From positions 124,001-188,000 of the forward strand of contig NZ_JARXIA010000007.1 of NCBI RefSeq assembly GCF_031127875.1: 64,000 bases of DNA, given 5' to 3'. This document shows positions 3,972 through 61,172 of this stretch, piece after piece. A program made the translations under genes and the position numbers. Each line of letters starts with the position of its first letter. Positions within the stretch are counted from its first letter, which is position 1. The notes below the pieces were generated by a model. The model searched no databases, was not told where the DNA came from, and was given only the letters and a program-made list of their open reading frames with translations. This DNA is from Pelagicoccus sp. SDUM812005. Its GTDB lineage: Bacteria; Verrucomicrobiota; Verrucomicrobiia; Opitutales; Opitutaceae.

Positions 3972-3988
3972 TGCAGAGCTCGCGCCAA
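3972..3988 (-). promoter_or_regulatory. sigma54-like promoter of the outer-membrane barrel gene
   Basis: Minus-strand TTGGCGCGAGCTCTGCA, with GG-N10-GC spacing and a full TTGGCGCG -24 half. The predicted transcript starts near 3961, about 92 bases before the ATG. Confidence 0.6.
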
Positions 3989-4368
3989 GTGTATCGAGAT
4001 TATGGAAACGCTTTTTGTTAAAATATTGTAAGATGTTAACTGTGAGCTGGATGGGCGAGGATCGCTGGGGCGGCTTTCGCGTTCGTTCCGAAGATGCGAC
4101 GGGGGTGCCACCGATAGAAGAGGGTCGGCGCTTTTCCATTTTGCTATGGAAGGGCTGCAGGATGCACCTCCGGGTTAGGTCGCTTCCGATCCGCTATAGG
4201 CGCTACTCCCATATGTTAGAAAAAAGTCGACATTGGGAGCGATTCGAACGGTTTTGGGGGAGCGTCTTATTTATAGAAACTGGATATGAGGGAAGGATAT
4301 GAGGGCGTCGTCGTAGACGACGAGAACCGAGAGAGCGTGGCTTTTCGCCAACGAAACAAGTCATTCTC
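3989..4368. other. Intergenic region between divergent barrel and kinase genes
   Basis: 380 bases without a convincing gene. A frame at 4015-4302 lacks any recognisable domain and has no ribosome site. A short perfect hairpin (CGTCGTC-GTA-GACGACG) lies at 4306-4322, 47 bases before the kinase start. Confidence 0.5.
4306..4322. repeat. 7-bp hairpin upstream of the REC-kinase gene
   Basis: A perfect inverted repeat CGTCGTC-GTA-GACGACG in the kinase leader. It has no T-run, so it is more likely a leader structure or protein site than a terminator. Confidence 0.4.
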
Positions 4369-5490
4369 ATGAAGCGTTCGGAGGAAGAGGAAGCGCTTGC
4401 TATGCAGTCTACGAGACTGCTTTTAATTGGAGACGACGTGTCGGACCGGAAGCGGATCGAGGACCTCCTCGCGAGGGCTCCCCGCGATCGGTATGCGATC
4501 GATTGGGCGTGCTCAACGGAGGAGCTCCCGGATTGCGTGCGGAACTGCCGTTACGACGCGATTTTGATCGACCATCGCTTGGAGTCGCAAGGGGTGGAGG
4601 CCTTGGTCACGGAGCTGGAGGCTCTCTGCGACCAGACCGCGGTAATTGTTTTGACGGATGGGGACCTTTCGGATGCGGAGGAGGCGGTGTGCCGGATGCC
4701 GGTCGACTTCCTGCTGAGCAAGAAGGAGCTTTCGGTTGATGGCTTGGATCGAGCGGTGCGCTACGCCATTCGCAACCGGGACCAACAGATGCGGCTGCGG
4801 AATTTCGCGCGGCTGGTGGCCCATGACTTGAAGGGGCCCTTGGGCAACGTGCGCAGCGCGGCGGAGATGTTGGCCATGCTTTTGCCGGATTTGTCGGGCG
4901 ACCCTCGCGAACTGCTGGAGGTGTTGCGGAGCGATTGCGAGAACCTGGAGTCTACCTTGGAGGCGTTGCACGAGTATTCGGCGTCGCAGGGCGGTCGCCT
5001 CGAGTCCAAGACGATCCCGCTCCAGCAGGTTTTGCAGGCGGCTTTATGCAACTTGGGAATGCCGGATGCCCTCGAGGAGGGGAAAGTGGTCTGCGAGGGG
5101 TTGCCGAGCGTGGCGGTCGACGCGGGGCTTTTCACTCAAGTATTCCAAAACCTGATACGCAACGCCTTGCAGTATAACGCGAGTTCGAAGCCGTCGGTGC
5201 GAATCAGCGCGGTTTCGGCGTTGGGGTGCTGCGAGTTGAAGTTTGCGGACAATGGGATCGGGGTCGACCCGCGGAAGGCCAAGGACGTGTTTCGGCCGAT
5301 GTATCGGCTCCACGGCACTGCGGCCTACGAGGGCACGGGGCTGGGCTTGACGGTTTGCAAGGGAATCGTGGAGCGGCACGGGGGCAGGATTTGGCTGGAG
5401 TCCAGCGGGATAGAGGGCGAAGGGAGCACGGTCTACATTCGACTCGTGGTGGCCCCGGATAGCCAAGCTTCCTCGACAGCGGAAGGCTGA
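4369..5490 (+). CDS. Cytosolic receiver-histidine kinase (REC-HisKA-HATPase)
   Basis: 373 residues; a start at the second ATG (4402, MQSTRLLLIGDD) is equally possible. An N-terminal receiver domain (about 14-130) has phospho-acceptor D68 in AILIDHRL, T96 and K118. It is joined by a helix to a kinase core with H152 in VAHDLKGPL. The ATP-binding domain follows: N-box NLIRNALQYN, G1 DNGIGVD and G2 GTGLGLTVCKGIVERHGG. No membrane segment or PAS domain is present, so the input is probably a phosphoryl group or partner protein acting on the receiver. No cognate regulator is adjacent; the stand-alone receiver at 29981 and the sigma54 activator at 49193 are possible partners within the window. Confidence 0.88.
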   Translation: MKRSEEEEALAMQSTRLLLIGDDVSDRKRIEDLLARAPRDRYAIDWACSTEELPDCVRNCRYDAILIDHRLESQGVEALVTELEALCDQTAVIVLTDGDLSDAEEAVCRMPVDFLLSKKELSVDGLDRAVRYAIRNRDQQMRLRNFARLVAHDLKGPLGNVRSAAEMLAMLLPDLSGDPRELLEVLRSDCENLESTLEALHEYSASQGGRLESKTIPLQQVLQAALCNLGMPDALEEGKVVCEGLPSVAVDAGLFTQVFQNLIRNALQYNASSKPSVRISAVSALGCCELKFADNGIGVDPRKAKDVFRPMYRLHGTAAYEGTGLGLTVCKGIVERHGGRIWLESSGIEGEGSTVYIRLVVAPDSQASSTAEG

Positions 5491-5626
5491 AGGGCGAGGG
5501 CCTGGTGGGTGGCGCTTGGCGCTATCCTTGCAGAAGTCGGAGGCGAATCGCCCCGCTCCGATTGGGCCCCGTGGTGGCCGAGCGTTTGTTTCCGTTTGGA
5601 GAGGGGCGGCTGAAGCTCATGCCGTT

Positions 5627-6739
5627 ATGAAGAATCGTTTCTCCAAGTATCTTTCGGGCGCTTCGCGCCGCAAACGGGGGCTGGCGATAGGCCTGCTGGC
5701 TCTGCTGCTGGTTTTGCTGGGGGCCCGGGTCCTGGCGCCCAGTTTGATTCGGAACCACGTAAATGGGGTGCTGAGCGATCTGGACGGCTATAACGGCTCG
5801 ATCGAGGACATCGATCTGTCGCTCATTCGTGGTGCGTACCGCGTGGACGGTTTGATTTTGAACAAGGAGCACGGGGGAGCGGAGCAGCCGTTTCTGGAGG
5901 TGCGTTCCATGGATTTATCCGTGGAGTGGCTGGCGCTTTTCAAGGGGGCGCTGGTGGGCGAGCTGGTCTTGGAGGAGCCGAAGCTTTCGCTTGTCGTCTC
6001 CGATCGGAAGGAGCGCGAGCAGTTGGGCGACGAGGGGAATTGGGTGGAGACGGTGCAAGCTCTGTTTCCCTTTACCCTGAACCGCTTCGAGGTGAAGGAC
6101 GGCGCGGTCGATTGGGCGTTGGAGGAGGACAGCCCGCTGGGGGCGGTTGCGGTGAGGAAGCTCAACGGCGTGGCGTCCGATATCACCAACGTGGACCGGA
6201 AGCAGGGCGAAGCCTTGCCTTCCCAGGTGCGGGCCAGCGGCTTGCTGGGGGAAGGGGCTCCCATGGAGTTGGAGGGAAGCTTCGACCTTTTGGCCGAGTC
6301 TTTGGAGATGAATTTGGACTTCCAGTGCGAGTCGATCCACCTGCCTTACCTGAATCCGATATTGGAAAACTACGCCAACATCGACGTGCGCAGCGGGACC
6401 TTGGGAATCTTCGTGGAGTGGGCGGTGTCGTCTGGGGAGGTCGATGGCTACGTCAAGTTCCTGGCGCGGGATATCGACGTGTTCCAGTTGGGCAAGGAGG
6501 GAGGGAATCCGCTCTCGGCCCTGTGGGACGCTTTCGCTGGCTTCTTGATCACGATCACCGAGAACAGGTCGAAGGACCAATTCGCGGCCAAGGTGCCGTT
6601 TAAGGGAAAGACCTCCGACTTGAAGGCGGGGGTGCTCCCGACGATCGGCTCGCTGCTGCAAAACGCTTTCGTTAGGGCCCTGGAGGGCGACGTGGACGGA
6701 AGCGTGAGCTTGGCGGACCTGCAAGCGGAGGGCGACTAG
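5627..6739 (+). CDS. DUF748/AsmA-like envelope protein
   Basis: 370 residues from the ATG at 5627 (MKNRFSKYLSG); an upstream TTG start at 5516 would add an unlikely extension. One N-terminal membrane helix (GLAIGLLALLLVLLGARVLAP) is followed by a long periplasmic beta-rich part with DUF748 features: DLSLIRGAYRVDGLILNK, LEVRSMDLSVEWLALFKGALVGELVLEEPKL, and a late GVLPTIGSLLQNAF segment. DUF748 proteins are AsmA-like and are thought to bridge the envelope; no reaction is known. It follows the kinase by 136 bases and may be co-transcribed. Confidence 0.75.
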   Translation: MKNRFSKYLSGASRRKRGLAIGLLALLLVLLGARVLAPSLIRNHVNGVLSDLDGYNGSIEDIDLSLIRGAYRVDGLILNKEHGGAEQPFLEVRSMDLSVEWLALFKGALVGELVLEEPKLSLVVSDRKEREQLGDEGNWVETVQALFPFTLNRFEVKDGAVDWALEEDSPLGAVAVRKLNGVASDITNVDRKQGEALPSQVRASGLLGEGAPMELEGSFDLLAESLEMNLDFQCESIHLPYLNPILENYANIDVRSGTLGIFVEWAVSSGEVDGYVKFLARDIDVFQLGKEGGNPLSALWDAFAGFLITITENRSKDQFAAKVPFKGKTSDLKAGVLPTIGSLLQNAFVRALEGDVDGSVSLADLQAEGD

Positions 6740-6790
6740 GCGAGCGCTGGCAGGCCGAAGGCGTCTGGCGTCTTGCAGGTTGGCCTATTC

Positions 6791-8470: not shown

Positions 8471-8530
8471 GGTAATTTCAGTTAGGCGAGCGGATGTGCG
8501 GAGAGGGATACCTCGTGGGGAGGATGGTTC

Positions 8531-9010: not shown

Positions 9011-9023
9011 GGTTGGCTCCAGT

Positions 9024-10094: not shown

Positions 10095-10111
10095 TGCTAG
10101 ATTGGCGCCAA
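10095..10111 (-). promoter_or_regulatory. sigma54-like promoter of the VOC gene
   Basis: Minus-strand TTGGCGCCAATCTAGCA with GG-N10-GC spacing. The predicted start is about 75 bases from the ATG at 10008. The -24 half is embedded in the palindrome GATTGGCGCCAATC (10100-10113). Confidence 0.5.
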
Positions 10112-10139: not shown

Positions 10140-10156
10140 TTGGTACGGAACTAGCA
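10140..10156 (+). promoter_or_regulatory. sigma54-like element abutting the topoisomerase IB start
   Basis: TTGGTACGGAACTAGCA with GG-N10-GC spacing. The C of the -12 pair lies 15 bases before the ATG at 10170. Confidence 0.5.
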
Positions 10157-11294: not shown

Positions 11295-11310
11295 TGGCGC
11301 ATCTTGTGCA
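11295..11310 (+). promoter_or_regulatory. sigma54-like element abutting the start at 11323
   Basis: TGGCGCATCTTGTGCA with GG-N10-GC spacing. The C of the -12 pair is 14 bases before the ATG. Confidence 0.45.
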
Positions 11311-11322: not shown

Positions 11323-11847
11323 ATGGGAATCAGGAGCGTCTTTATCATTCTGCTTATCGCTTGCGGAGCCTTGTTTGCCGGCAGCTTGTTTAAGCAGGAG
11401 CAAGCCGTGCGCACGGTTCCGAGCGATTTAGGCTTTGACGAAACGGTGCAGGTCTTCGAGAAGCGCTTAGCGGACGGAGGTTTTAAGGTATTGGCCCGCT
11501 GGGACCAAGCACTGCCGGAGGAGGAATACGCTCGCGATAGCCTTGTGTATGTCTTCGGCCGCCCCAGCGGAGTGGACGCGGAGGGTTGGACGCTGGTGGA
11601 CGATCCGAAAACGGTGTTGATTTGGTCTTCCGAAGAAGGACAGACACTGCTCTCTGCGGAGTGGAGCTCGCTGGATACGGATGCGGTAGTCGCGTCGCTC
11701 CGTCGTTCGGAAGCGGATACGAAGTTTTTCGAAACGATAGAAATGCAACCCTTGGTCGCGAATATCGGCCCCGACGAATTGAAGGAGAAACGTGCACCCG
11801 GGCCGCCGACCAGCCCAAGCGGCCTGTCGGTGGCTCAATCTGACTAA
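11323..11847 (+). CDS. Membrane-anchored periplasmic protein of unknown function
   Basis: 174 residues. One N-terminal hydrophobic helix (SVFIILLIACGALFAGSLF) acts as anchor or uncleaved signal. The rest is a soluble alpha/beta domain (DLGFDETVQVFEKRLADGGFKVLARWDQ), faintly like DUF302 proteins, in which a similar 'v-x-x-l-x-x-x-L-x-x-x-G-F' start occurs; this likeness is too weak for a family call. The C-terminus is Pro/Ser-rich. It lies 26 bases before the persulfide dioxygenase gene, so it may head the sulfur cassette. Confidence 0.6.
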   Translation: MGIRSVFIILLIACGALFAGSLFKQEQAVRTVPSDLGFDETVQVFEKRLADGGFKVLARWDQALPEEEYARDSLVYVFGRPSGVDAEGWTLVDDPKTVLIWSSEEGQTLLSAEWSSLDTDAVVASLRRSEADTKFFETIEMQPLVANIGPDELKEKRAPGPPTSPSGLSVAQSD

Positions 11848-16255: not shown

Positions 16256-16704
16256 AGAATATAGCGAGTTGTATACGTGTTGGTTATTGTTGTTGTTGTT
16301 TTTGAATGATCCGTAGCGTACGGCTGGCACAGAGCTTCCCCTTGGTCCGGTGGGCTTCTGATCCATTGCTCTATTGCAGAAGCCCTGCCAGATTGATGCT
16401 TGGAGTTTTTGCGTAGTTGACGCGGTTCTGTAAGTGTCACATGAAGAAGAGGATGTGCTGCTGACGGCCCTCCTCTGTTTTCAGAAAATATTTATTGTAA
16501 GGGAAAGCCGGATACGATTAAGGGGGCGAAACGCCTAGGTGCGGCTGGGCGGTCCCAGTTAGGGAAGCGAGAGGGAGTCGGGCGCCGCTCGGACCGGGGA
16601 CTTTTGCAATGTTGCCAGTCTCACTTTGCATTTTCGGCTTTGAGGGGAAGGGGGTGGGCGTTCTGGGAGAGTCTTGGCGCGAAACTTTCGGCGTCGATTT
16701 GGCA
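16256..16704. other. Intergenic region between VPDSG-CTERM and glutamate-synthase-like genes
   Basis: 449 bases without a gene. It holds the minus-strand -24/-12 element at 16375-16391. On the plus strand a TTGGCGCGAAAC box lies at 16675-16686 before the next gene, but its -12 half (TTTC) is not a match. Confidence 0.5.
16375..16391 (-). promoter_or_regulatory. sigma54-like promoter of the VPDSG-CTERM gene
   Basis: Minus-strand TGGCAGGGCTTCTGCA with GG-N10-GC spacing. The predicted start is about 109 bases before the ATG at 16255. Confidence 0.5.
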
Positions 16705-18189: not shown

Positions 18190-18290
18190 GAATGCCTGCG
18201 AAGTGCAAAGCACAGCGGCGTGGGTGCATTTCGCATCGGGGTGGCGGCGGGGCTCGGCTTGGTACGAAGTTATATAGCGATGGATCGCGC

Positions 18291-18306
18291 TGGCCTGATA
18301 TTTGCA
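18291..18306 (+). promoter_or_regulatory. sigma54-like promoter of the ACIII-caa3 operon
   Basis: TGGCCTGATATTTGCA with GG-N10-GC spacing and a perfect TTTGCA -12 half. The predicted start at about 18317 gives a 41-base leader to the ATG at 18358. Confidence 0.55.
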
Positions 18307-18357: not shown

Positions 18358-19002
18358 ATGCCTCCCCCTTTCACTCCAGCTCAAGACCAATGGCTCCGCA
18401 ACGCCTTCAGGCTGTTTATTGCGGGAGTGGTGTTGTTGGGCGTTACTGGATTCGCCTGGAAGCAATGGGATTTCGATCCCGAGCAAGGGCTGCCGGTGGA
18501 TCAGCCGGTTCCCTTCAGCCATCGGCACCACGTCACGGATATGGGGATCTCGTGTCGCTACTGTCACAGCGACGTGGATACGTCGGCCTTTGCGGGCATG
18601 CCCGACACGCAAACCTGCATGAGCTGCCATTCGCAGTTGTGGACGGAAGCGGAGGTCCTGCAACCGGTGCGAGACAGTTTTCGAAGTGGAAAGCCGATCG
18701 AATGGCAGCGGGTGCACGATTTGGCGGACTTCGTGTATTTCGACCATAGCGTTCACCTTGCCCACGGAATAGACTGTCGCAGTTGCCATGGGGATGTTGC
18801 GGATATGCCGCAGGTTTGGCGGGAGGAGAGGTTTTCTATGGAGTGGTGCCTCGACTGTCACAGGGATGACGGGGCTTCCCAAGGGCTGCAGCCGCGTGGG
18901 GGCGGTGATTTGTTCGAGGGAGCAGCGGTCCCGCACGCAGAAGCAAGCGAGAGAGGGCACCCCTTGAGCCGGATGGAAAATTGTTCCGTATGCCACCGAT
19001 GA
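18358..19002 (+). CDS. actA: Alternative complex III multiheme cytochrome c subunit ActA
   Basis: 214 residues. An N-terminal membrane helix (LFIAGVVLLGVTGFAW) anchors a periplasmic cytochrome with five CxxCH haem sites: CRYCH, CMSCH, CRSCH, CLDCH and CSVCH. This is the pentahaem ActA subunit of alternative complex III, which passes electrons from the quinol-oxidising core to the cytochrome c acceptors. The stop TGA overlaps the ATG of actB. It is the first gene of a twelve-gene respiratory operon. Confidence 0.9.
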   Translation: MPPPFTPAQDQWLRNAFRLFIAGVVLLGVTGFAWKQWDFDPEQGLPVDQPVPFSHRHHVTDMGISCRYCHSDVDTSAFAGMPDTQTCMSCHSQLWTEAEVLQPVRDSFRSGKPIEWQRVHDLADFVYFDHSVHLAHGIDCRSCHGDVADMPQVWREERFSMEWCLDCHRDDGASQGLQPRGGGDLFEGAAVPHAEASERGHPLSRMENCSVCHR

Positions 19003-30547: not shown

Positions 30548-31414
30548 TTAGTACTTGCGGACCTTGATGGAGTTCTCGATCTGGAGGTCGCTGTTTTCCT
30601 CGGCGAGCTCGGCGGCGCGCTTCTTGGCTTCTTCGCTCTTTACGGTACCCTTCAGGACGATGCGGTCATCCTTTTTCTCGACCGTTACGCTGGCGAGATC
30701 GGTAGCGTTGTCGCCGGAGATGAGGGCGCCGCGAACGAGGGTGACGTCGTCGTCGAAGGATTGCTTGGCGCTGTAGTAGCCTTGGCTGTCGTCAGCGCTG
30801 TCGAAGTCGATGGGCTCTTGCTCTGCGAGGGCAACGACTTGGCTCTTGGTGGAAGCGAGCGTGAAGCGTTCCTTGCGGGCGTCCCAGGAGAGCTCGTTGG
30901 CAGGAACAGCGACGATGTCGTCACCGATGCCGAATAGTCCGCCTACGGAGATAAAGGCCGTGACGCGGCCCTGGCCCTGCATGGACTGGCTTCGCATGGA
31001 CGACTGGCTCTGCATGGATTGGTCTAGTTCGCCCCACTGGCTGTTGGCGTCAGGCAGGTGCGTTCCCTTGTTTTCCTTCCGATCCTTGTCCATGTGACCC
31101 TTGTTGAGGGAAGAGGGAAGGCCGCTGATGCCGATGTCGGCGATGTCGCCGATCTTTTCGCCTGCGTTGTCGTACACGGAGGCTCCGATGAGGTCCTTAG
31201 CGGTGACTTGACGATCGAGCGAGTCTTGCGTCACGCGGTGCATGCGCTGCGATCCCATGGCGCTCTGGTCGTGGCGGTCGTACTGCGAGTGGGCGCTCGC
31301 TTGCTTGCTTTGGTCGTTACGGTTGTATTTCGAGGAATCGTCCTTTGCGGCGAATCCTGTCGTTGCGATTGCGGTTGCTGCGATTGTCGCAGGAATGATG
31401 TGTGAGATTTTCAT
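30548..31414 (-). CDS. Periplasmic PRC-barrel and BON-domain protein (OsmY-like)
   Basis: 288 residues from the ATG at 31414. A signal peptide (MKISHIIPATIAATAIATTGFA) is followed by a Gln/Ser/Asp-rich linker. A PRC-barrel-like segment (LIGASVYDNAGEKIGDIADIGI...FISVGGLFGIGDDIVAVPANEL) is interrupted by a low-complexity insertion of SMQSQS-type repeats. A C-terminal BON domain (VTLVRGALISGD...VTVEKKDDRIVLKGTVKSEEAKKRA) binds membranes or lipids in relatives such as OsmY. This is a typical envelope stress protein. A very good sigma54-like element lies at 31490-31506. Confidence 0.82.
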   Translation of the reverse strand: MKISHIIPATIAATAIATTGFAAKDDSSKYNRNDQSKQASAHSQYDRHDQSAMGSQRMHRVTQDSLDRQVTAKDLIGASVYDNAGEKIGDIADIGISGLPSSLNKGHMDKDRKENKGTHLPDANSQWGELDQSMQSQSSMRSQSMQGQGRVTAFISVGGLFGIGDDIVAVPANELSWDARKERFTLASTKSQVVALAEQEPIDFDSADDSQGYYSAKQSFDDDVTLVRGALISGDNATDLASVTVEKKDDRIVLKGTVKSEEAKKRAAELAEENSDLQIENSIKVRKY

Positions 31415-31489: not shown

Positions 31490-31506
31490 TGCTAGCATCG
31501 CGCCAA
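31490..31506 (-). promoter_or_regulatory. sigma54-like promoter of the BON-domain gene
   Basis: Minus-strand TTGGCGCGATGCTAGCA with GG-N10-GC spacing and the full TTGGCGCG box. The predicted leader is about 65 bases. Confidence 0.6.
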
Positions 31507-32039
31507 GTATCATTCCGTGCCGCTAGGCCCTCTGCTATATAGTAGAAACTTATATTTGCTAAAGGCGCCGGGAGCGGATGCATGCTTTTCGCATGCGTGT
31601 TCCCTCTATTTTGGTGCGCTTTGCGAAGGGGAAACACTTTATTGTACCCGGATAAACAATGAGGTCGCCGCTTTACGCGGATCGAGGTAAAAGGGGGCAG
31701 CGTTGGCAGGGGGCGCGGAATTTCAAGGCGGCGGTGAAGCGAAAGGGTTTACCGGGCGTTCCGCCGCGCCGGGGTTGTCTCGGAACCTTGCTAGGTCGCG
31801 CTCCTAGGTCAGGTCACGAGCTTTGTATCGAAACACCGCTGGCCTCTGGAATGGGCGCCTCGTTTCGCCGCGAGCTTGGTAAGTGCGAGATGCAATAAGG
31901 AAAGTGGCAATTTGTTACCCGTAAGCGGCTAGCTTCGAGGGTGCGGACTGGGAAGGCATTTTTTTGTTCGCGCGTTATTCCTTTGTTAAGGGGGCTGGTG
32001 GGGGCGCTGACTGAGAAGGAAACCGGCGTATAGGGGATT

Positions 32040-33099: not shown

Positions 33100-33115
33100 T
33101 GGCGCGGCATTTGCA
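33100..33115 (+). promoter_or_regulatory. sigma54-like promoter of the DJ-1/PfpI gene
   Basis: TGGCGCGGCATTTGCA, with GG-N10-GC spacing and both halves near perfect. The predicted leader to the ATG at 33191 is about 65 bases. Confidence 0.65.
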
Positions 33116-38964: not shown

Positions 38965-39069
38965 TAGAGCGTTTTTCGTTTAGTTAGCCGTACTGTGTGA
39001 TGAGGGAAACGCGGCGTGCCCGGCGGTCCCGCCCTACCTTATGCGAAAGATGAAACGAAATATGCTCTA
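38965..39069. mobile_element. MITE-like element with terminal inverted repeats, copy A
   Basis: 105 bases. The left end TAGAGCGTTTTTCGTTT and right end AAACGAAATATGCTCTA are inverted repeats, each flanked by or including TA, as in Tc1/mariner-IS630-type elements. The middle (CCGTACTGTGTGATGAGG and GCGGCGTGCC) matches copy B at 55504. This copy has about 18 extra bases (39021-39038). Its right TIR provides the TAG stop of the phosphoketolase gene on the minus strand. No transposase is encoded. Confidence 0.7.
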
Positions 39070-41459: not shown

Positions 41460-41476
41460 TGCAGTTTTCGGGCCAA
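41460..41476 (-). promoter_or_regulatory. sigma54-like element abutting the phosphoketolase start
   Basis: Minus-strand TTGGCCCGAAAACTGCA with GG-N10-GC spacing. The C of the -12 pair is 13 bases before the ATG at 41448, with no other in-frame start near. Confidence 0.55.
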
Positions 41477-41555: not shown

Positions 41556-41571
41556 TGGCGCGGGGACTGCG
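41556..41571 (+). promoter_or_regulatory. sigma54-like element abutting the ExoD start
   Basis: TGGCGCGGGGACTGCG with GG-N10-GC spacing. The C of the -12 pair is 15 bases before the ATG at 41585. It is divergent from the phosphoketolase element 80 bases away. Confidence 0.5.
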
Positions 41572-42613: not shown

Positions 42614-42629
42614 CGCAGAAGCTGCGCCA
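42614..42629 (-). promoter_or_regulatory. sigma54-like promoter of the DCC gene
   Basis: Minus-strand TGGCGCAGCTTCTGCG with GG-N10-GC spacing. The predicted leader is about 20 bases. Confidence 0.45.
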
Positions 42630-42803
42630 GCGTTTTAGGGCGACAAGCCCTAGGAGTTGCGAGCGAACTGAGAGGTCGGCGTGGCTAATCGCATCTTAGC
42701 GGCTTCGCTTTTATGCGATTTGCATTGCGGGCGGAGCGAGCGGGCTTGGCGCTGCGGGGGCGAATGGAAGGCTCTTGAGAATGAAGGCGGGGCGGAAGGA
42801 GGT

Positions 42804-44873: not shown

Positions 44874-44889
44874 TGCATACGCCATGCCG
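44874..44889 (-). promoter_or_regulatory. sigma54-like promoter of the YciE-like gene
   Basis: Minus-strand CGGCATGGCGTATGCA with GG-N10-GC spacing; the first base is C rather than T. The predicted leader is about 60 bases. Confidence 0.4.
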
Positions 44890-45102
44890 CAGGGAAGGGG
44901 CGGGGAGCCGGTGAGACGGCGAACTTTTTTTAGAGGCATTATCGCAGGCCGCGAGGGAGATGGAGACCGTGCCATTCTGCAGATGCTCGCTGTGCGGTTT
45001 GCATACTGGGTCCGGGGTCGCATGGGGCTTGTTATAAGCGTTGCGTGAGGGGAGGAGGCGTGGAGCTGCGGAGCTTTGGGAGTCGGGGCGCGTTTGGGAA
45101 AA

Positions 45103-45119
45103 TTGGCAACGAACCTGCA
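45103..45119 (+). promoter_or_regulatory. sigma54-like promoter of pyruvate oxidase
   Basis: TTGGCAACGAACCTGCA with GG-N10-GC spacing. The predicted start at about 45130 leaves a 26-base leader containing AAAGGAAGGAA before the ATG at 45156. Confidence 0.65.
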
Positions 45120-49192: not shown

Positions 49193-50563
<1,371 letters not shown>

Positions 50564-50658: not shown

Positions 50659-50832
50659 TCAGCGGGGCGTTTTTCCGCGGATGGCGCCGGCTGCGAAAGA
50701 TACTACAAGCAGTACGAGGAATACGAAGAAGAGTATCTTCGCGACGCCTGCCGCTGCTCCGGCGATTCCGGTGAATCCGAGCAAGCCTGCGATGATCGCG
50801 ACGACGAGAAAAGTAAGTGTCCAAGATAACAT
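50659..50832 (-). CDS. DUF1328 (YtjA-like) small hydrophobic membrane protein
   Basis: 57 residues read from the ATG at 50832: [20 protein letters not shown], then a Gly/Ala-rich stretch ([20 protein letters not shown]) and a second helix ending GAIRGKTPR. This is the complete DUF1328/YtjA pattern of two membrane helices with [10 protein letters not shown] in between. The function is unknown. Upstream lies a near-perfect -24/-12 element (50877-50893). Confidence 0.88.
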
Positions 50833-50876: not shown

Positions 50877-50893
50877 TGCGATTTCCGCGCCAA
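50877..50893 (-). promoter_or_regulatory. sigma54-like promoter of the DUF1328 gene
   Basis: Minus-strand TTGGCGCGGAAATCGCA with GG-N10-GC spacing and full TTGGCGCG box; predicted leader about 34 bases. Confidence 0.6.
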
Positions 50894-50991
50894 GTCCTTT
50901 GGCGATAGGGCGAACGGAGCCTGTGGAGGGGGAGCGGAGGTGACTTTGGGAGGCGAATTTTTTAGGAGGCCGCAAAGCAGGTTTTTGCGTG

Positions 50992-51046
50992 GTGCAAAAT
51001 GCACTGCGGAAGTGCAAATCGCATTTAAATTTTCGTGCATTTTGTA
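50992..51046. promoter_or_regulatory. GTGCA-repeat region upstream of rsbR
   Basis: GTGCA-AAA-TGCAC (50992-51004), then GTGCAAATCGCAT (51012-51024) and CGTGCATTTT (51035-51044). An A/T-rich TATAAA lies at 51045-51050. This may be an operator plus core promoter for the stressosome operon; no -24/-12 pair fits here. Confidence 0.3.
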
Positions 51047-51100: not shown

Positions 51101-51943
51101 ATGAAAAAAATTATGGAATTACTATCGGGCGACGTTTCGGGTGTATTGTCGAAATGGATATCACTTCAGCGTAACGATGAGAGCAGTTCGCTTTCTATTC
51201 CGGAAGACGAGGTGGTTTCGCAATCGACTGATTTCTTCAAGCTGTTCGTGCGGGCAGTAGCGTCGGGCAAGACGGATATAAACGATCCGGCATGGGACGA
51301 GACCTTGACGATGCTGCGGGAGGTCGCGATCTATCGCGGCCAGCGCGGGTTGAAGCCGGCGGAGACGGCGACCTTCGTGCTTTCCTTGAAGGAGGCGCTT
51401 TTCGAGGTCTTGTTGGAGAAGGGACGTTCCAAGAATTTGCTGGAGGACCTTTGGAGCGTGACGGTGTGCGTGGACAAGCTCGGCTTGTTCGTGATGAGCA
51501 TCTTTATCGAGAAGCGCGAGGACGTTATCGAGCGCCAGCAGGAAGAGCTGCTAGAGGTATCGACTCCGGTGGTCGAGCTGTGGGACGGAGTGCTGGCCTT
51601 GCCGGTGATCGGGACCTTGGACAGTTCCCGGGCCCAGGTGGTGATGGAAGGTTTGCTGGACGCGATCGTACAGTTCGAAGCGAAGATCGCGATCATCGAC
51701 ATCACGGGCGTGCCGGCGGTGGATACGCAGACGGCGCAGCACCTCTTGAAGACGGTGACGGCTGCGGAGCTGATGGGAGCGGAGTGCTACATCAGCGGAG
51801 TGCGTCCCCAGATCGCCCAGACGATCGTGCAGCTGGGGCTGGACCTGGGAGGGATGCAGACGAAGGGCTCGCTCATGAGCGCCTTCCAGCAGTCTCTGAA
51901 TCGGCTAGGTTTGAGTATCCAAAAAATTGATAACAAGGGTTAG
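51101..51943 (+). CDS. rsbR: RsbR-like stressosome sensor (STAS co-antagonist)
   Basis: 280 residues from the ATG at 51101. An N-terminal helical sensor domain (1-150) without Fe-haem ligands is followed by a STAS domain (157-275) with IDITGVPAVDTQTAQHLL. T209 and T241 align with the two phosphothreonines of Bacillus RsbRA. The SGVRPQIAQTIVQLGLDLG motif matches as well. RsbR and RsbS form the stressosome particle that holds RsbT until stress signals arrive. First gene of rsbR-rsbS-rsbT-(ATPase-PP2C)-kinase. Confidence 0.9.
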   Translation: MKKIMELLSGDVSGVLSKWISLQRNDESSSLSIPEDEVVSQSTDFFKLFVRAVASGKTDINDPAWDETLTMLREVAIYRGQRGLKPAETATFVLSLKEALFEVLLEKGRSKNLLEDLWSVTVCVDKLGLFVMSIFIEKREDVIERQQEELLEVSTPVVELWDGVLALPVIGTLDSSRAQVVMEGLLDAIVQFEAKIAIIDITGVPAVDTQTAQHLLKTVTAAELMGAECYISGVRPQIAQTIVQLGLDLGGMQTKGSLMSAFQQSLNRLGLSIQKIDNKG

Positions 51944-51963
51944 GGAGGGTAGCTCGAAAATTG

Positions 51964-52338
51964 ATGCAGAACAACATTCCTATTTTGAAGCTGGGCGACT
52001 TCCTCCTCGTGACGATCCAGATGGACGTGCACGATCGGACGGCCTTGCAGCTGCAGGACGACTTGACCAACGAAATTTCGAAGCGTCGCTCCAAGGGAGT
52101 GTTGATTGATATTTCGAACCTGGAGGTAGTGGATTCTTTCATGGGGCGGGTCTTGTCTGACATTGCCTCGATGGCTAAGGTCTTGGACGCGGAGACGGTG
52201 GTGGTGGGGATGCGTCCCGCGGTCGCCATGACGTTGGTGGAGCTCGGCCTCTCGCTTCCCAGCGTGGTCACTGCCTTGAACTTGGAGCGAGGAATGGAGC
52301 TATTGACGCAGCGTCTGGGAAGAAAGGGTAATGGGTAA
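51964..52338 (+). CDS. rsbS: RsbS-like stressosome scaffold (STAS antagonist)
   Basis: 124 residues from the ATG at 51964, a single STAS domain. The phospho-acceptor S58 lies in DISNLEVVDSFMGRVLSDIA, the same place as S59 of Bacillus RsbS. MRPAVAMTLVELGL is the typical final helix. It sequesters RsbT; phosphorylation by RsbT releases it. Its stop overlaps rsbT by 8 bases. Confidence 0.92.
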   Translation: MQNNIPILKLGDFLLVTIQMDVHDRTALQLQDDLTNEISKRRSKGVLIDISNLEVVDSFMGRVLSDIASMAKVLDAETVVVGMRPAVAMTLVELGLSLPSVVTALNLERGMELLTQRLGRKGNG

Positions 52339-52741
52339 CGAGGAGAGCTTTCGTGAGTCCCTGCGGTTGCGGAGCGATAAAGATGTGAGCAAGGCGCGAG
52401 TGTTGATATCGCAATGGGCGGTGCGGCAAGAGTTTAGCGTTATCGAAAGGACTCGGGCGATGACTGCGGTGAGCGAGATCGCGCGCAATTGCGTGGTTTA
52501 CGCGGGCGGCGGCACTATGTACGTGAGCTCTCTCTATCACGAGGGAGCTCCTGGCTTCCGTATCCAGATTGTGGATCAGGGGCCGGGGATTCCGGATGTG
52601 GACCAGTCCATGAAGCGGGGCTACAGTACCGGTGGCGGTCTGGGGCTCGGAATGGAAGGGGCCCGCAACCTGTGCCGCGCCTTTCGGGTGGAGAGCAATG
52701 CGGGAGCGGGGACTACCATCACGATGGACTACTGGAAATGA
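52331..52741 (+). CDS. rsbT: RsbT-like switch kinase
   Basis: 136 residues, a lone GHKL ATPase. N-box AVSEIARNCVVYAGGG with E49 and N53, then IVDQGPGIPDVDQSMKRGYSTGGGLGLG with the G1 and G2 boxes. In Bacillus it phosphorylates RsbR and RsbS and then turns on RsbU. No RsbU is here; the next genes carry similar ATPase domains, which are the probable partners. Overlaps the next gene by 4 bases. Confidence 0.92.
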   Translation: MGNEESFRESLRLRSDKDVSKARVLISQWAVRQEFSVIERTRAMTAVSEIARNCVVYAGGGTMYVSSLYHEGAPGFRIQIVDQGPGIPDVDQSMKRGYSTGGGLGLGMEGARNLCRAFRVESNAGAGTTITMDYWK

Positions 52742-53769
52742 AACCGGGATCGTTGATTGAAATTGAAGAGAAGAGCCGAATCTCGCAAGCGCGGCGCCGG
52801 GCGAAGGCAGCGGCGAAGGCGCTAGGCTTTTCGGAGGTCGATCGCGAACGGGTGGGGATAGCGGTCACGGAGGCGGTCGCGAACGTGCTCAGGCACGCGG
52901 GGCGTGGGCATTTCTTGTTGCAGCCCTTGGAGGAGGCTGAGGAGTTGGCCGCGATCGTATGGGATGAGGGGCCGGGGATTTCGAATCTTGGCCAGTGCAT
53001 GAGCGACGGGTACTCGTCGGCCGGCGGGCAGGGCATAGGGCTGGGGGCGATGAAGCGCCAGTCCGATACCTTCGATCTTTATTCGCCGCCGGAGGGCGGC
53101 CTGGTGGTGGCGATGAGCTTTCGCAAACGATGCTCTTTGAAACCTGAAACGCCTCCAAAGCGTGCATTGTGGGATGCGTTTGCGACGTGCCTGCCGATGC
53201 CGGGACAAACCGTTTCGGGGGATGCGTGGGCGATTCGGGAGTGGACCCGGGGCCTCAAGATCCTGCTGGTCGACGGGCTAGGCCACGGGCCGAAGGCGAA
53301 TTTGGCAGCGAGCCGGGCGGTGGACTGCTTTTCCGAGGTGTATGCGGAGGATGGCGAGTCCGTAATGCTTGCCCTGAATGAAGCTCTCAGGGGAACGCGT
53401 GGCGCGGTTGCTGCGGTTGCTGAAGTGGATAGGCTGTCAGGGACAGTTCGATACACCGGTATGGGCAACATCTACGGACGATTATTTACAGCTACTGAGT
53501 CTACGCAGCTGCTCTCCATGAGTGGAACGATTGGTTACCACATGAGGGCGCCGCGCAGCTTCGAGTACCCGTGGACGGAAGACAGCATGATCGTGATGCA
53601 CTCGGACGGGGTCGGGAGCCGGTGGGATTTCTCGAAGTTTCCAGGACTGGCGTTTTCCCGCAGTTCGCTGGTCGCCGGAGTGCTGGCAGGAGGATTTCGC
53701 AAGCTTTCGGACGACAGTTCGATCGTTTGCGTCAAGTTGCGGGCGGAAGAGGAGGGAATCGCCTCCTAG
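52738..53769 (+). CDS. ATPase-PP2C fusion (RsbX-like phosphatase with RsbT/W-like ATPase)
   Basis: 343 residues from the ATG at 52738. Residues 1-130 are a GHKL ATPase (AVTEAVANVLRHAGRG, WDEGPGISNLGQCMSDGYSSAGGQGIGLG). Residues 140-343 are a SpoIIE/PP2C phosphatase with SGDAWAI, LLVDGLGHGPKANLAAS and SDDSSIVCVKL metal-site motifs. The phosphatase part corresponds to RsbX, which resets phosphorylated RsbR and RsbS. The extra ATPase may bind the stressosome or a partner. ATGA overlap with rsbT. Confidence 0.88.
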   Translation: MKPGSLIEIEEKSRISQARRRAKAAAKALGFSEVDRERVGIAVTEAVANVLRHAGRGHFLLQPLEEAEELAAIVWDEGPGISNLGQCMSDGYSSAGGQGIGLGAMKRQSDTFDLYSPPEGGLVVAMSFRKRCSLKPETPPKRALWDAFATCLPMPGQTVSGDAWAIREWTRGLKILLVDGLGHGPKANLAASRAVDCFSEVYAEDGESVMLALNEALRGTRGAVAAVAEVDRLSGTVRYTGMGNIYGRLFTATESTQLLSMSGTIGYHMRAPRSFEYPWTEDSMIVMHSDGVGSRWDFSKFPGLAFSRSSLVAGVLAGGFRKLSDDSSIVCVKLRAEEEGIAS

Positions 53770-53778: not shown

Positions 53779-55428
53779 ATGCCGCACAACGCTGCCAGTC
53801 GCTACACGCTTGTCTCCTCGCTGATCGACAGCGAGGAAGACCTCGCTGCGAGTCGCCGCTGGGCCAAGCTGATCGCGGAGAAGCTGGGCTTGGACCCGTC
53901 TACCCAGACCCGCCTTTCCACGGCGGTGTCCGAGGTTTCCAGGAACGCCCTGAGCTATGGCGGCGGCGGGCGAATCGTTTTCCAGCTCGATACGATTAGC
54001 AATCCGCAGGAGCTGGCTGTTTTCGTGGAGGACGACGGGACCCAGCCGGACGAGGTGCAGCGTCGCATTCTCTCGCGCAAAGGCTTGGGAGTGGGGCTAT
54101 CAGGGAGCCGCCGCCTCGTTTCCCGTCTGGAGGTGGATGCATCCAAGGGCGGAGGCACCTTGGTGAAGCTTTACTTGACCCTGCCTGATTCGCTGAAGCG
54201 TTTTACCTTGAACGACGCCAGCAACATTCGAGACGAGATCTTGAGTTCGGGGGACCTGAATCCCTTGGCCGAGTTGAAGCGGCAGAACCAGGAGCTCTTG
54301 GCTTCGCTCCAGTTGATCGAGAATCAGAAGCAGAAGCTCGCCCAGTTCAACAAGGAGCTGCGCGAGGCGGAGGAGCGTCAGCGGCGGACGGCGGAGAAGA
54401 TGCAGGCGATCTTGGAGAACCTGCCGGACTCCATCGTGTTGTACGGCCCCGATTGCGAATTTGAATACAGCAACGGCCCGGCCAAGACCTTGGCCAGCTT
54501 GGGGGAGTCGGACGTTCCCTTCGGCTTGGATTCGGTTTTCGAGGAAGCCATCAAGTCGGGAAAGGACTACTTTCCGGAAGGGCCGGGGAGTTTGTTGCAG
54601 GAGAAGGTGAACGGCGAGGACCGTTATTTTCTACCTCGGGTAATTAACTTCCTAGGCTCCGGCGGCACGGCTCGCGGGGCCTTGCTGCTGCTGCGCGACG
54701 TCACGGACATGCGCTTGCTCGACGATCTGAAGATGGACTTGCTCGGAACCTTGAGCCACGAGATCAAGGGGCCGGTGACTTCCATCCGCATGGCGGTGCT
54801 GCTGCTGCTCGACAGGGCTCTGGGCGAGCTGAACGACGATCAAAAGGAACTGGCGGAAACGGCTAAGTCGGAGATCGAGCGCTTGCTGCGTTTGCTGAAC
54901 AACCTGCTGGACGTGCAGCGCTTTTCCAGCGGCGGCTATAGTTTGCAGCGGGTCTATTGTACGGTCGCCGACGTGGTTGCGCGTTCGACTAGCGAAATGC
55001 GCCGGGACGCGGAGAAGCGCGGCATCGCTCTGGAGGACCGCACGGAGCAGTGCTCCACGGAGGACCTTTTCGTCGACCAGGAGCGCATTATATACGCTCT
55101 CAACAACTTGCTCTCGAACGCGATCAAGCATTCGGAGTCGGGGCAGACGGTTACCCTGACTGCCGAGAGGGACGCTTCGGGAAAAAGCATTCGTCTCGGT
55201 GTGAGGGACGAAGGCTCTGGCATTCCCAAGCGCTACCAACAGCTCATCTTCAATCGCTATGCCAAGGCTCCGGGTAACCGGAGGCCGGGGATCGGCCTAG
55301 GGTTGACCATCGCTCGTGACTTTGCTCGGGCCCATGGGGGTGACATCGGTGTCGAGAGCGACGAGGGCAAGGGTAGCCATTTCTATATCGAACTCCCCTT
55401 GGGGCGCGAGGAAGTCCCGGAGGATTGA
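53779..55428 (+). CDS. Histidine kinase with N-terminal RsbT-like ATPase domain and PAS domain
   Basis: 549 residues. Residues 1-135 form an RsbT-like GHKL domain (STAVSEVSRNALSYGGGG with E52 and N56, VEDDGTQPD, KGLGVGLSGSRRLV). A coiled coil (160-210) leads to a PAS domain (about 208-312, ILENLPDSIVLYGPDCEFEY). The kinase core has H327 (GTLSHEIKGPVTSIRMAV), then NNLLSNAIKHS, VRDEGSGIPKRY and GIGLGLTIARDFARAHGG. No membrane segment. It is the last gene of the stressosome operon and probably phosphorylates the sigma54 regulator at 49193. Confidence 0.88.
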   Translation: MPHNAASRYTLVSSLIDSEEDLAASRRWAKLIAEKLGLDPSTQTRLSTAVSEVSRNALSYGGGGRIVFQLDTISNPQELAVFVEDDGTQPDEVQRRILSRKGLGVGLSGSRRLVSRLEVDASKGGGTLVKLYLTLPDSLKRFTLNDASNIRDEILSSGDLNPLAELKRQNQELLASLQLIENQKQKLAQFNKELREAEERQRRTAEKMQAILENLPDSIVLYGPDCEFEYSNGPAKTLASLGESDVPFGLDSVFEEAIKSGKDYFPEGPGSLLQEKVNGEDRYFLPRVINFLGSGGTARGALLLLRDVTDMRLLDDLKMDLLGTLSHEIKGPVTSIRMAVLLLLDRALGELNDDQKELAETAKSEIERLLRLLNNLLDVQRFSSGGYSLQRVYCTVADVVARSTSEMRRDAEKRGIALEDRTEQCSTEDLFVDQERIIYALNNLLSNAIKHSESGQTVTLTAERDASGKSIRLGVRDEGSGIPKRYQQLIFNRYAKAPGNRRPGIGLGLTIARDFARAHGGDIGVESDEGKGSHFYIELPLGREEVPED

Positions 55429-55589: not shown

Positions 55590-55601
55590 GCAAATCAGCG
55601 G

Positions 55602-56147: not shown

Positions 56148-56246
56148 GGTCTCGTGGGTTTATTTGGTTATAATATTAATATATTGGGTGGGAGCCTCTA
56201 TAGGCCTCTCGTTGATTTAAGTCGTATTCGAAATCTGGATGCGTCG

Positions 56247-57045: not shown

Positions 57046-57065
57046 GGTAACGAAAGAATGTTTTC

Positions 57066-57518
57066 CTAGTTGCTTGTATCGCTCTCGTCTCGGGCGCTGC
57101 AGATCACGCGTCCGGCAAGGAAGCCGACGGCGACGGCTGCGCCGAGAGCGAGGAAAGGTGCGCGGCGTACGCGTTCGGTGGCCTGGTCGGCAAGCTGCTC
57201 CGGCGGCGTGTTCTTGATATAGTCGGCGGAGCTCTTGATCTGCTCGGCAAGGTTGGCGGTGATCTTGGCCGTTTCTTCTTCCGAGTCGGATTCCAAGCTT
57301 TCGGAGGCCTTGTTGAGCGCGGAGTGGTAGCGGCCTAGCTTCTGGGAGAGGCTTTCTTGGGCCTGCTTGCTGAGGGCTTTGGATTTCTTTTCCAAAACTT
57401 CGCGCAGTTCGCGCTTACGCTCTGCGAGCCAGTCGGAGTTCGAGCGCTCCGCGCTATGGGTAGTGTGGTTGCTGTCTTCGATATCCGTTTCTGGCTCAGT
57501 GGTCGTGTTGTGATTCAT
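57066..57518 (-). CDS. YqjD-like membrane-anchored helical protein
   Basis: 150 residues. A charged long helix (SDWLAERKRELREVLEKKSKALSKQAQESLSQKLG...) is followed by a C-terminal membrane helix (APFLALGAAVAVGFLAGRVI). The terminal GFLAGR fits DUF883 proteins (G-F-L-x-G-x-x). It starts the group of four envelope genes on the minus strand (57066, 56572, 56247, 55602). A possible weak -24/-12 element lies at 57605-57620. Confidence 0.72.
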   Translation of the reverse strand: MNHNTTTEPETDIEDSNHTTHSAERSNSDWLAERKRELREVLEKKSKALSKQAQESLSQKLGRYHSALNKASESLESDSEEETAKITANLAEQIKSSADYIKNTPPEQLADQATERVRRAPFLALGAAVAVGFLAGRVICSARDESDTSN

Positions 57519-57908
57519 TTTATTTTTCGATTGGTGGTTTGTTTTAATGAGGGGTGCTAAGCGGGCGCGTCGGCCGCTCTTTGTTTAATACTTGCAATAC
57601 TTTAAGCACAGTGGATGCCGGTGATTTTTGCTATTTGTGTAAGTGTCTCGTGCTGAGTGTTATATATATATGAAATAATTCTGGAGCCAATGGGTGAGGG
57701 AGGGGAGCGACTGCACAAGGCCTCGTTTGGGAGCAGCGTTTTGCATATTGCAATTAGGAGGGGAATTTCCACGAGGCGATCGATGTAGTTGAAGATGGAT
57801 ACGTTGTTTCGTTGAGAGGAGGGAAGAGGGCGTGGGATTGCCTAGGGGGACGGGCGGCGGGAGAGCTTCGCGCTTAAGATCCGTCGCTTGGCGCCGATCT
57901 GTGAGCCT
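57519..57908. other. Intergenic region between divergent YqjD-like and small membrane genes
   Basis: 390 bases without a gene. TATATATATA at 57661-57670 and the weak minus-strand element CGGCATCCACTGTGCT at 57605-57620 are the only structures seen. Confidence 0.45.
57605..57620 (-). promoter_or_regulatory. weak sigma54-like element before the YqjD-like group
   Basis: Minus-strand CGGCATCCACTGTGCT keeps GG-N10-GC spacing but has C for T at the first place and GTGC at -12. Confidence 0.25.
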
Positions 57909-58190: not shown

Positions 58191-58195
58191 GCCGG

Positions 58196-59410: not shown

Positions 59411-59429
59411 GCTTGGTTTCGTTGGAAGT

Positions 59430-59445
59430 TGGCGCTGCAGTTGCG
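59430..59445 (+). promoter_or_regulatory. sigma54-like element abutting the DUF4112 start
   Basis: TGGCGCTGCAGTTGCG with GG-N10-GC spacing and perfect TTGC. The C of the -12 pair is 13 bases before the ATG at 59457. GAGAGGGAG lies between. Confidence 0.5.
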
Positions 59446-59456
59446 AGAGGGAGTTT

Positions 59457-59828: not shown

Positions 59829-60154
59829 GTGTTAGGTTGCGTCTTTCATTCTTCAGGAAACGCGCCAGATCGAGGAGGACCCTCCGCTTCGAGGGAATGC
59901 CGCCTGCCTGCGGGCGTTACTGCGCGTAAGGCGCTGTGAGTGGTTGGGTGTGAAGTTGCGTTTTGCCCTCTGGAAGGTCTGCGTGGTGCAATGCGCATTC
60001 AGAAAGGACCGGTTTTGCTGGGTGGGGCGGGGTGGCGCGAAACTGGCGAGTGGGAAGGGGCTGCGAATCGATCGCGACCGCTTCGATGCGCGGCAAGGCC
60101 CTTTGGGGATGTTATTCCGAAGGACAGTATAAACCCATTATAGATATTATTCGA
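59829..60154. other. Intergenic region before dps
   Basis: 326 bases without a gene of its own. Two possible -24/-12 elements lie at 59945-59960 (TGGGTGTGAAGTTGCG) and 60033-60048. Confidence 0.45.
60033..60048 (+). promoter_or_regulatory. sigma54-like element upstream of dps
   Basis: TGGCGCGAAACTGGCG with GG-N10-GC spacing and perfect -24 half. The predicted leader is about 95 bases. TGGCGCGAAAC also occurs before the lipoprotein gene (9215) and the FMN protein gene (16675). Confidence 0.4.
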
Positions 60155-60628: not shown

Positions 60629-60659
60629 TCCCGCGGGAGCTCGAACTTTTAAACGAATT

Positions 60660-60689
60660 GAGGGAAGGCACGGGTGGGTGCCTTCCCTC
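60660..60689 (+). terminator. Terminator-like hairpin after dps
   Basis: GAGGGAAGGCAC (60660-60671) pairs with GTGCCTTCCCTC (60678-60689). No T-run follows (TTAGTG), so efficiency is uncertain. Confidence 0.55.
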
Positions 60690-60726
60690 TTAGTGTCGGA
60701 TAGCGTCTAGTGACGGAAAGTGTTCG

Positions 60727-61122
60727 TTATACGGCGTAGGAGTGAACGGTGTACTCGGGGAGTCGGTCGTTCATTTCCAGGTCGAGGGTACGGATCTGGC
60801 AGAGGGTGCTGGATTGGAGCGTCAGCTCGTCGTAGGGGTAGCAGGCGGAAGCTAGGTTCTCGATGAGCTTGCGGGCCTCGGTATAGCTGAGCTTGCCGGA
60901 GAACTGCACTTCAAGGATCCGCGCGCATCCAGCCCGGACATTTTGTTTCAGTTCGCGTGGTAGCCAGTTTTCCTGGTCGAGCTTGCTGAGGATGAATTTG
61001 ATTCGCTGGGCGAAAGCCTTGGGGGTTGGGATGGTAGTGGTGGTCTTGGGATTCCAAGGGGTGGTGGGTCGCGGGCGCTGAGGGCTCTTTTGGCCGGAGC
61101 TAAGGTTCAAAAAGGCTTTCAT
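60727..61122 (-). CDS. Small helical protein, paralogue of the protein at 32133
   Basis: 131 residues. The Pro/Thr-rich N-terminus is followed by a helical core (LDQENWLPRELKQNVRAGCA) that lines up without gaps with residues 50-103 of the protein at 32133, with about 17 of 53 identities. No known family. Convergent with dps. A -24/-12-like element lies at 61157-61172. Confidence 0.62.
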   Translation of the reverse strand: MKAFLNLSSGQKSPQRPRPTTPWNPKTTTTIPTPKAFAQRIKFILSKLDQENWLPRELKQNVRAGCARILEVQFSGKLSYTEARKLIENLASACYPYDELTLQSSTLCQIRTLDLEMNDRLPEYTVHSYAV

Positions 61123-61156
61123 ATAGTTGCGTGTTGGTTGCTGCGATTTGAAGACT

Positions 61157-61172
61157 TGCGAAGGCTATGCCC
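61157..61172 (-). promoter_or_regulatory. sigma54-like element before the helical gene at 60727
   Basis: Minus-strand GGGCATAGCCTTCGCA has GG-N10-GC spacing but G at the first base; predicted leader about 24 bases. Confidence 0.3.

Follow-up and report, generated by a model that had tools for sequence, protein, structure and literature searches.

Which regulator switches on the stress-type genes that lie close together in one part of the genome of the marine bacterium Pelagicoccus sp. SDUM812005? The question was raised by a stretch of 64,000 nucleotides (positions 124001-188000 of contig NZ_JARXIA010000007.1, here C96, of the 6.65 Mb genome, here G000), which is called the window and to which all coordinates without a contig name refer. 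An initial annotation had noticed many sigma54-like -24/-12 elements in front of genes in the window, had pointed to an NtrC-type activator gene at 49193, and had proposed a sigma54 regulon for general stress and overflow metabolism. The present analysis is sequence-derived throughout. Very probably, the GG-N10-GC sites act as sigma54 promoters, and the stress and overflow genes behind them form a real regulon. The reading that we favor, with somewhat better than even confidence, is that this local regulon would stand under a stressosome, by way of a histidine kinase and the NtrC-type activator. Stressosomes are stress-sensing complexes that are mainly known as regulators of a very different sigma factor.

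Sigma54 promoters have the consensus TGGCACGN4TTGCW. Every GG-N10-GC was scored for its closeness to this consensus, with GG and GC fixed and with weights of our own (maximum 7.9); weighted scores, intergenic DNA, and controls were used instead of loose matching. The controls were 100 dinucleotide shuffles, the wrong spacers 7, 8, 9, 11, 12, and 13, and the rest of the contig, and the thresholds were picked after the scores were visible. The detailed scan covered 1.59 of 6.65 Mb (24% of the genome). Genes were called by a codon-usage script that overlooks small genes, and the genes for DUF1328, DUF4112, and a cytochrome were added manually.

The ten positions named in the initial annotation all hold an exactly spaced GG-N10-GC site, with scores of 5.3-7.6. 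Intergenic sites with a score of at least 6 numbered 12 in the window, compared to a mean of 0.66 and a maximum of 3 in the shuffles, and each of the wrong spacers yielded 0-1. At a score of at least 5.5, there were 17 sites versus 1.97 in the shuffles (maximum 6). Only one of the 13 window sites of at least 6 was found in coding DNA. The site cluster extends past the window and occupies about 85 kb of C96: positions 106-195 kb hold 19 sites of at least 6 (1.0 in shuffles), the remainder of the contig holds one (1.0 in shuffles). For 720 kb of contig C31, the numbers were 9 versus 3.8 (shuffle maximum 9), and for contigs C42, C74, and C63 together, 4 versus 2.1. Intergenic sites of at least 5.8 were as numerous in C96:100-200 kb (22) as in the other 1.3 Mb or so of five long stretches (22), in a table that leaves out ten 20-kb activator neighborhoods. 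In the whole genome, the pattern TTGGCNCGN6GCA has 26 matches, seven of them inside 84 kb of C96 (1.3% of the genome); on other contigs, four more lie no further than about 2 kb from activator domains. Its reversed control has 16 genome matches in all.

A second element accompanies these sites. K-mers of the type GTGCATTTTGCAT were the most enriched upstream of them, 50-75 times over other intergenic DNA. A matrix was forced to be palindromic, seeded from an enriched k-mer, and trained on G000 alone, with 25 upstream regions of our choice, several of which are divergent pairs with common upstream DNA. It has the core TGCR-N3-YGCA with a middle of mostly A/T, and a copy of at least 10 bits is present in 17 of the 25 regions. 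The first guess at the palindrome, RTGCANNNTGCRY, turned out to be a poor pattern and was rejected (35 genome matches versus 29 for the reversed control, both strands added); TGCRWWWYGCA performed better genome-wide (58 versus 27 for the reversed control, per strand). Intergenic palindromes of at least 11 bits number 27 in C96:100-200 kb, and none occur at 1-100 kb or at 200-275 kb. In the intergenic DNA of the window, TGCRN3YGCA is found 16 times versus 0.62 in 60 shuffles (maximum 4), and its variants with spacers of 1, 2, 4, or 5 are found 0-2 times. The distance from the palindrome to the GG downstream of it is 50-149 bp in 30 of 43 nearby pairs, which were pooled from three genomes and are not independent. 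This spacing matches the expectation for sigma54 enhancers, and the palindrome looks like the enhancer of the activator.

Two other Pelagicoccus genomes, G002 and G005, were used for comparison. Synteny of the island extends to G002 (contigs C67 and C125) and, in part, to G005 (C9), and in both genomes sites and palindromes are found again at orthologs. Of 84 genes, 42 have an ortholog in G002 and 21 have one in G005. A site was kept in 12 of 16 ortholog upstream regions when the G000 gene has a site of at least 5.5, compared to 4 of 38 when it scores below 4.8 (Fisher p 6.6e-6). On their opposite strand, these 16 regions show a site in three cases. In this count, the activator gene, which lies behind the DUF1328 gene, was dropped, G000 genes scoring 4.8-5.5 belong to neither group, and the DUF4112 site lies outside the upstream region used. 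Of the four misses, three are in G002 (ExoD, the BrkB gene, and a PRC gene) and one is in G005 (DCC). An alternative run, in which the upstream region was longer and G002:C125 was left out, yielded sites of at least 5.8 in 8 of 12 versus 7 of 35 cases. The palindrome was also concentrated in the two held-out genomes. G005:C9 has 13 copies in 7.6 kb of intergenic DNA at 1-50 kb and one in 7.8 kb at 50-120 kb. G002:C67 has 15 in 18.5 kb at 1-40 kb, one in 3.8 kb between, and 2 in 9.2 kb at 50-100 kb, with intergenic lengths that are overestimated since the gene caller marks just 68% of this contig as coding.

The gene at 49193..50563 (minus strand) encodes a complete NtrC-type sigma54 activator, in line with the initial annotation. 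The 456 amino acids contain REC (PF00072), sigma54 AAA+ (PF00158, 2.1e-68), and Fis HTH (PF02954) domains; the GAFTGA motif is present and the HTH could be aligned. The orthologs are 87% (G002) and 79% (G005) identical. The genome has a single rpoN copy (PF04552, 1.8e-59) and about 12 strong activator genes. The gene for the small DUF1328 protein (57 amino acids, 50659..50832, minus strand; PF07043, 3.2e-16) is probably the first gene of an operon with the activator gene. It is preceded by a -24/-12 site at 50877..50892 (minus strand, score 6.8), which is kept in G002 (-56), in G005 (-62), and at a paralogous locus on contig C74. A candidate enhancer palindrome at 50991..51005 (15.7 bits) is part of a block conserved in three species, and a second copy at 51011..51025 (15.8 bits) lies 20 bp from the first. 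When this promoter was aligned across the three species and with its C74 paralog, conservation was clearest at the palindrome, the -24/-12 element, and the bases preceding the start codon. The C74 locus (L038, G000:C74:264019-265717) repeats the gene order of DUF1328 and activator, has the same -24/-12 element and palindrome, and lies near MlaA/MMPL and PRC-BON genes.

The paralogous activators on C74 (75% identical) and C31 (62%) have similar HTHs. Five activators of the C31 type were compared. Palindrome and -24/-12 element are both found in front of the genes of G000, G007, and G001, only the palindrome in G002, and neither above the thresholds in G005. The G000 member adjoins a HAMP histidine kinase gene, and the G007 member is followed by a kinase gene. 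In the five genomes, a very similar strong -24/-12 element (about TGGCRCGTCCATTGCT) was observed at a distance of about 7-14 kb from this type of activator (G000:C31:121630, G007:C6:31923, and G001:C5:96334, all minus strand; G002:C93:311345 and G005:C13:51273, both plus strand).

What could control the activator? In G000, G002, and G005, an operon with rsbR, rsbS, and rsbT in this order is divergent to it; in the window, all genes of this operon are on the plus strand. The RsbR-like protein (276 amino acids, 51113..51943) consists of RsbRD_N and STAS domains (PF14361, PF01740) and matches solved RsbR chains. The RsbS-like STAS protein (125 amino acids, 51961..52338) matches the RsbS chain 6qcm (2.3e-32). 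The RsbT-like GHKL kinase (136 amino acids, 52331..52741; PF02518/PF13581) matches SpoIIAB chains and has the G1 box DQGPG. They are followed by a GHKL plus SpoIIE (PP2C) phosphatase (343 amino acids, 52738..53769; PF13581, PF07228) and by a histidine kinase with an N-terminal RsbT-like GHKL domain (549 amino acids, 53779..55428; PF13581, PF00512, PF02518). The phospho-Ser position is kept in RsbS upon alignment with Listeria RsbS (chain 9o4r, with Ala there, aligns alongside), both Thr positions are kept in RsbR upon alignment with solved chains, and the G1 box of RsbT is intact; we take these to be the functional positions of the three proteins.

In the histidine kinase, the first 130 residues form a GHKL domain similar in kind to RsbT/SpoIIAB, which is the only N-terminal Pfam domain. 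The G1 box of this domain (53779-54170) is degenerate in the three Pelagicoccus species and intact in the Verrucomicrobiota genomes G100, G112, and G248. The degenerate box suggests a docking rather than a catalytic role in Pelagicoccus. A relative with 78% identity is present in Pelagicoccus sp. SDUM812002, and a search for related loci with the kinase yielded three loci, one of which is a close relative. Full-length matches were found in three of eight genomes of the genus (G000, G002, and G005); in the other five, including G007, the best match covers the kinase core only, the search there being one for the kinase and not for rsbR.

Taken together, the following mechanism is proposed. The RsbR/RsbS/RsbT complex would sense stress and alter the activity of the kinase (53779-55428) via its RsbT-like domain, and the kinase would phosphorylate the activator (49193-50563). 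The activator would bind the TGCR-N3-YGCA palindromes that lie 50-150 bp before -24/-12 promoters and, together with RpoN polymerase, would switch on some 20-25 transcription units over about 85 kb, its own operon included. The targets would comprise the genes for PRC/BON, DUF1328, DUF892, Dps, cytochrome, phosphoketolase, pyruvate oxidase, and DJ-1 proteins as well as others. The layers of this scheme differ in their basis. The putative promoters, the palindrome, their conservation, the domain content, and the gene order can be read from the DNA itself, and the promoter layer appears well supported; the link to the stressosome rests on the conserved gene neighborhood. Binding of the palindrome by the activator is suggested because its own operon and the C74 and C31 paralog operons all carry palindromes, with similar HTHs. 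The kinase would be the partner of the activator because the two are neighbors in three species, and control of the kinase by the stressosome is indicated by the shared operon and the RsbT-like domain. For the specific version of a stressosome with sigma54 output, in which the RsbT-like domain of the kinase has lost its ATP box and docks on the stressosome, we regard the chances as evenly balanced.

The individual sites in the window differ in score, conservation, and presence of a palindrome. High scores were obtained for an outer-membrane barrel-like gene (2895-3869; site 3972..3987, minus strand, 7.0, G002 ortholog also 7.0) and for a PRC/BON gene (30548-31414; site 31490..31505, minus strand, 6.9, with 6.6 in G002 and 6.5 in G005), which has a palindrome of 11.5 bits upstream at 31581..31595. 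The phosphoketolase gene (39067-41448; site 41460..41475, minus strand, 6.3, G002 6.9) has a palindrome of 13.2 bits, and the ExoD gene has a site at 41556..41571 (plus strand, 6.2; just 4.3 in G002). A multihaem cytochrome gene according to Pfam (18358-19002), assigned to an ACIII operon in the initial annotation, has a site at 18291..18306 (plus strand, 5.7) and an upstream palindrome at 18223..18237 (15.2 bits). The pyruvate oxidase-like gene has a site at 45104..45119 (plus strand, 5.3, the same in G002), and between it and the DUF892/YciE site lies a palindrome of 13.1 bits at 44991..45005.

The initial annotation had also listed weaker sites. Three of them gained support from a palindrome or from conservation. 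The DUF892/YciE site (44874..44889, minus strand) scores 5.1 at -86, with counterparts of 6.5 at -91 in G002 and 6.0 at -82 in G005. The site of the DCC thiol-disulfide oxidoreductase gene (42614..42629, minus strand, 5.8; 6.1 in G002, none in G005) has an upstream palindrome of 16.5 bits at 42712..42726, and that of the Dps/ferritin-like gene by Pfam (60033..60048, plus strand, 5.8) has one of 13.8 bits at 59985..59999. The glyoxalase/VOC (10095..10110, minus strand, 6.1) and topoisomerase IB (10141..10156, plus strand, 5.7) sites are backed by the score only. Four further sites have high scores, namely those of the genes for DJ-1/PfpI (33100..33115, plus strand, 7.6; G002 5.7), DUF748 (gene 5627-6739, site 5517..5532, plus strand, 6.8), VPDSG-CTERM (16375..16390, minus strand, 6.1), and DUF4112 (59430..59445, plus strand, 6.0; in G005 6.2 at 6174). 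For these six sites (33100, 16375, 59430, 5517, 10095, and 10141), no palindrome of at least 10 bits was found within 218 bp. A gene without Pfam match (11323-11847) has a site at 11295..11310 (plus strand, 6.6) and a palindrome of 9.0 bits only. The strongest palindrome of the window (57740..57754, 16.9 bits; 17.6 at the G005 ortholog) lies upstream of 57066-57518.

Several observations weigh against the proposed scheme, and three alternative explanations were considered. One of them is that base composition or a repeated element, rather than promoters, accounts for the excess of motifs. A window search that allowed three mismatches yielded 96 matches versus 95 expected, i.e., chance level, and the bare GG-N10-GC is very common and strongly strand-skewed (713 on the plus and 273 on the minus strand of window 1-64000). 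Loose sites alone are therefore uninformative, and motif counts in the window need strand-aware controls. Yet the excess is not seen in dinucleotide shuffles, at wrong spacings, or in the rest of the contig, it nearly avoids coding DNA, and the sites are kept at matching positions amid diverged intergenic DNA, so that we regard this explanation as extremely improbable. Several sites stop 12-17 bp before the called start codon, which would mean very short leaders or miscalled starts. At the level of the enhancer, most island promoters might belong to this activator and the palindrome-free ones (DJ-1, VPDSG-CTERM, DUF4112, DUF748, VOC, and topoisomerase IB) to other sigma54 activators. Eight of the 25 training regions lack a palindrome copy of at least 10 bits, the six sites listed above could answer to another activator, the dozen or so activator genes offer candidates, and PEP-CTERM genes of Proteobacteria have a predicted sigma54 activator of their own, PrsR (PMC1569441). 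The palindrome-free sites share the same island, however, a weak or distant enhancer would escape detection, and the DJ-1 site in G002 and the DUF4112 site in G005 are kept in place. Such mixed control is a serious possibility, to which we give a little less than an even chance. Conversely, strong palindromes without a strong -24/-12 element nearby (57740-57754, 29904, 33784, and 61352) may belong to promoters whose elements are weaker, or the activator may have some other role there. Gene by gene, palindromes of at least 11 bits were conserved to a moderate degree only, in 12 of 22 ortholog pairs compared to 5 of 30.

At the level of the signal, the sigma54 promoters might be real but be addressed by a conventional kinase via the C31-type activator or the C74 paralog, with the stressosome feeding elsewhere or being just one of several inputs. 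With their similar HTHs, the two paralogs could act on the same palindrome and may share the regulon; three of the five C31-type activators have both elements in front, and the one in G000 has the HAMP histidine kinase as a neighbor. The core of the stressosome kinase is 38% identical to a C85 kinase versus 32% to the C31 kinase beside the paralogous activator. Kinship was therefore unhelpful as proof of the pairing, and the partnership of kinase and activator is not shown by it. In G007, -24/-12 sites and a palindrome were found near SDR, transaldolase, and pyruvate oxidase genes. These genes look regulated in a genome where no match spans the full stressosome kinase, and thus the sigma54 stress regulon may predate its stressosome link. 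On the other side, the genomes in which the dense island was observed (G000, G002, and G005; elsewhere only 36-76 kb were examined) are those with the stressosome and the 79-87% activator orthologs, and the activator of the window lies inside the island, itself behind the same type of promoter. Control by a paralog is unlikely in our view, and we prefer the stressosome as the input.

A further point against the proposed scheme comes from the distribution. RsbR matches with E of at most 1e-15 were found in 11 of 288 Verrucomicrobiota genomes, G000 included. Most of the ten other neighborhoods group rsbR, rsbT, and phosphatase genes, and a kinase gene lies alongside in seven; an intact activator gene is adjacent in none of the ten, and G248 has an activator-like gene about 6 kb away. 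According to Pfam, an RsbT-like domain is fused to the kinase in G100, G112, and G248 but not in G165 and G225 (G174 was not scanned). The claim of an adjacent stressosome and activator is limited to Pelagicoccus among the genomes examined. As a separate observation, the last gene of the stressosome operon in G225 (L169:11578-13716, minus strand) and G242 (L172:2603-4711, plus strand) encodes a response regulator of about 700 amino acids, for which Pfam, applied to G225 only, revealed a REC domain, a degenerate sigma54 AAA domain, and a Ser/Thr kinase domain.

Is sigma54 then the stress sigma factor of this organism? The genome has three PF04539 sigma hits, two of which were scanned. One passes the FliA/WhiG model, the other is a group-2 type sigma70 of 353 amino acids (299 bits versus an RpoS cut-off of 378.7), and neither passes the SigB or SigBFG model. 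The third hit (583 amino acids, not scanned) is taken as RpoD by its length. SigB as the stressosome output was thus rejected, as no such sigma passes its model among those scanned. Since a group-2 sigma70 is also present, sigma54 need not be the sole stress sigma factor. The sigma54 regulon of stress and overflow genes that had been proposed was supported; that it takes the usual place of sigmaS or sigmaB is the less certain part of that proposal.

Many Gram-negative bacteria have stressosomes but no SigB, and the targets in these bacteria are mostly open; output modules of RsbRST were reportedly reviewed by Pane-Farre in 2005. In Pelagicoccus, a candidate output is legible from the DNA, with an activator of sigma54, an enhancer-like palindrome of defined sequence, and a compact group of target promoters conserved in three species. 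If true, the scheme would join two classic regulatory systems, give sigma54 a general stress role in Verrucomicrobiota, and provide a ready list of reporters for stressosome signaling outside the Firmicutes. The initial annotation had mentioned neither the stressosome operon next to the activator nor the enhancer-like palindrome. Among the open-access matches listed, and in passages of PMC9237108, PMC10014275, PMC7522486, PMC4260858, PMC3999984, and PMC12316311, no description of a stressosome that works via sigma54 was found.

The activator resembles NtrC/AtoC-type regulators in its REC-AAA+-HTH architecture, its GAFTGA motif, and the enhancer-like sites upstream of its putative targets. It differs in that its best NCBIfam model, AtoC, scores 399.5, below the cut-off of 714, and in that the only N-terminal Pfam domain of the presumed kinase is RsbT-like. 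PrsK/PrsR is described as governing a sigma54 regulon of scattered PEP-CTERM genes with a matching upstream motif (PMC1569441). An NtrC-type response regulator and a conserved upstream motif plus -24/-12 elements before many genes are common to both systems. In contrast, the Pelagicoccus activator fails the PrsR model (TIGR02915, 375.7 versus a cut-off of 502.6), and this identity was rejected; the putative targets are stress and overflow genes, and the neighboring kinase is built differently (PrsK itself was not searched for). With the RsbRST-sigmaB systems of Bacillus and Listeria, the locus shares the RsbR-RsbS-RsbT order, the STAS and GHKL domains, and the phospho-Ser/Thr positions; it differs in the lack of a SigB-family sigma among those scanned and in an operon that ends in a histidine kinase gene and is divergent to an NtrC-type activator. 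Another parallel is the stressosome of Vibrio vulnificus, which functions without SigB and has a two-component output, D1/D2 (PMC10014275). In both cases, RsbRST and a phosphatase are followed by a two-component system, and a SigB-like sigma factor is thought not to be the output. In Vibrio vulnificus the output is thought to be c-di-GMP, whereas in Pelagicoccus it would be a sigma54 activator with a recognizable local regulon.

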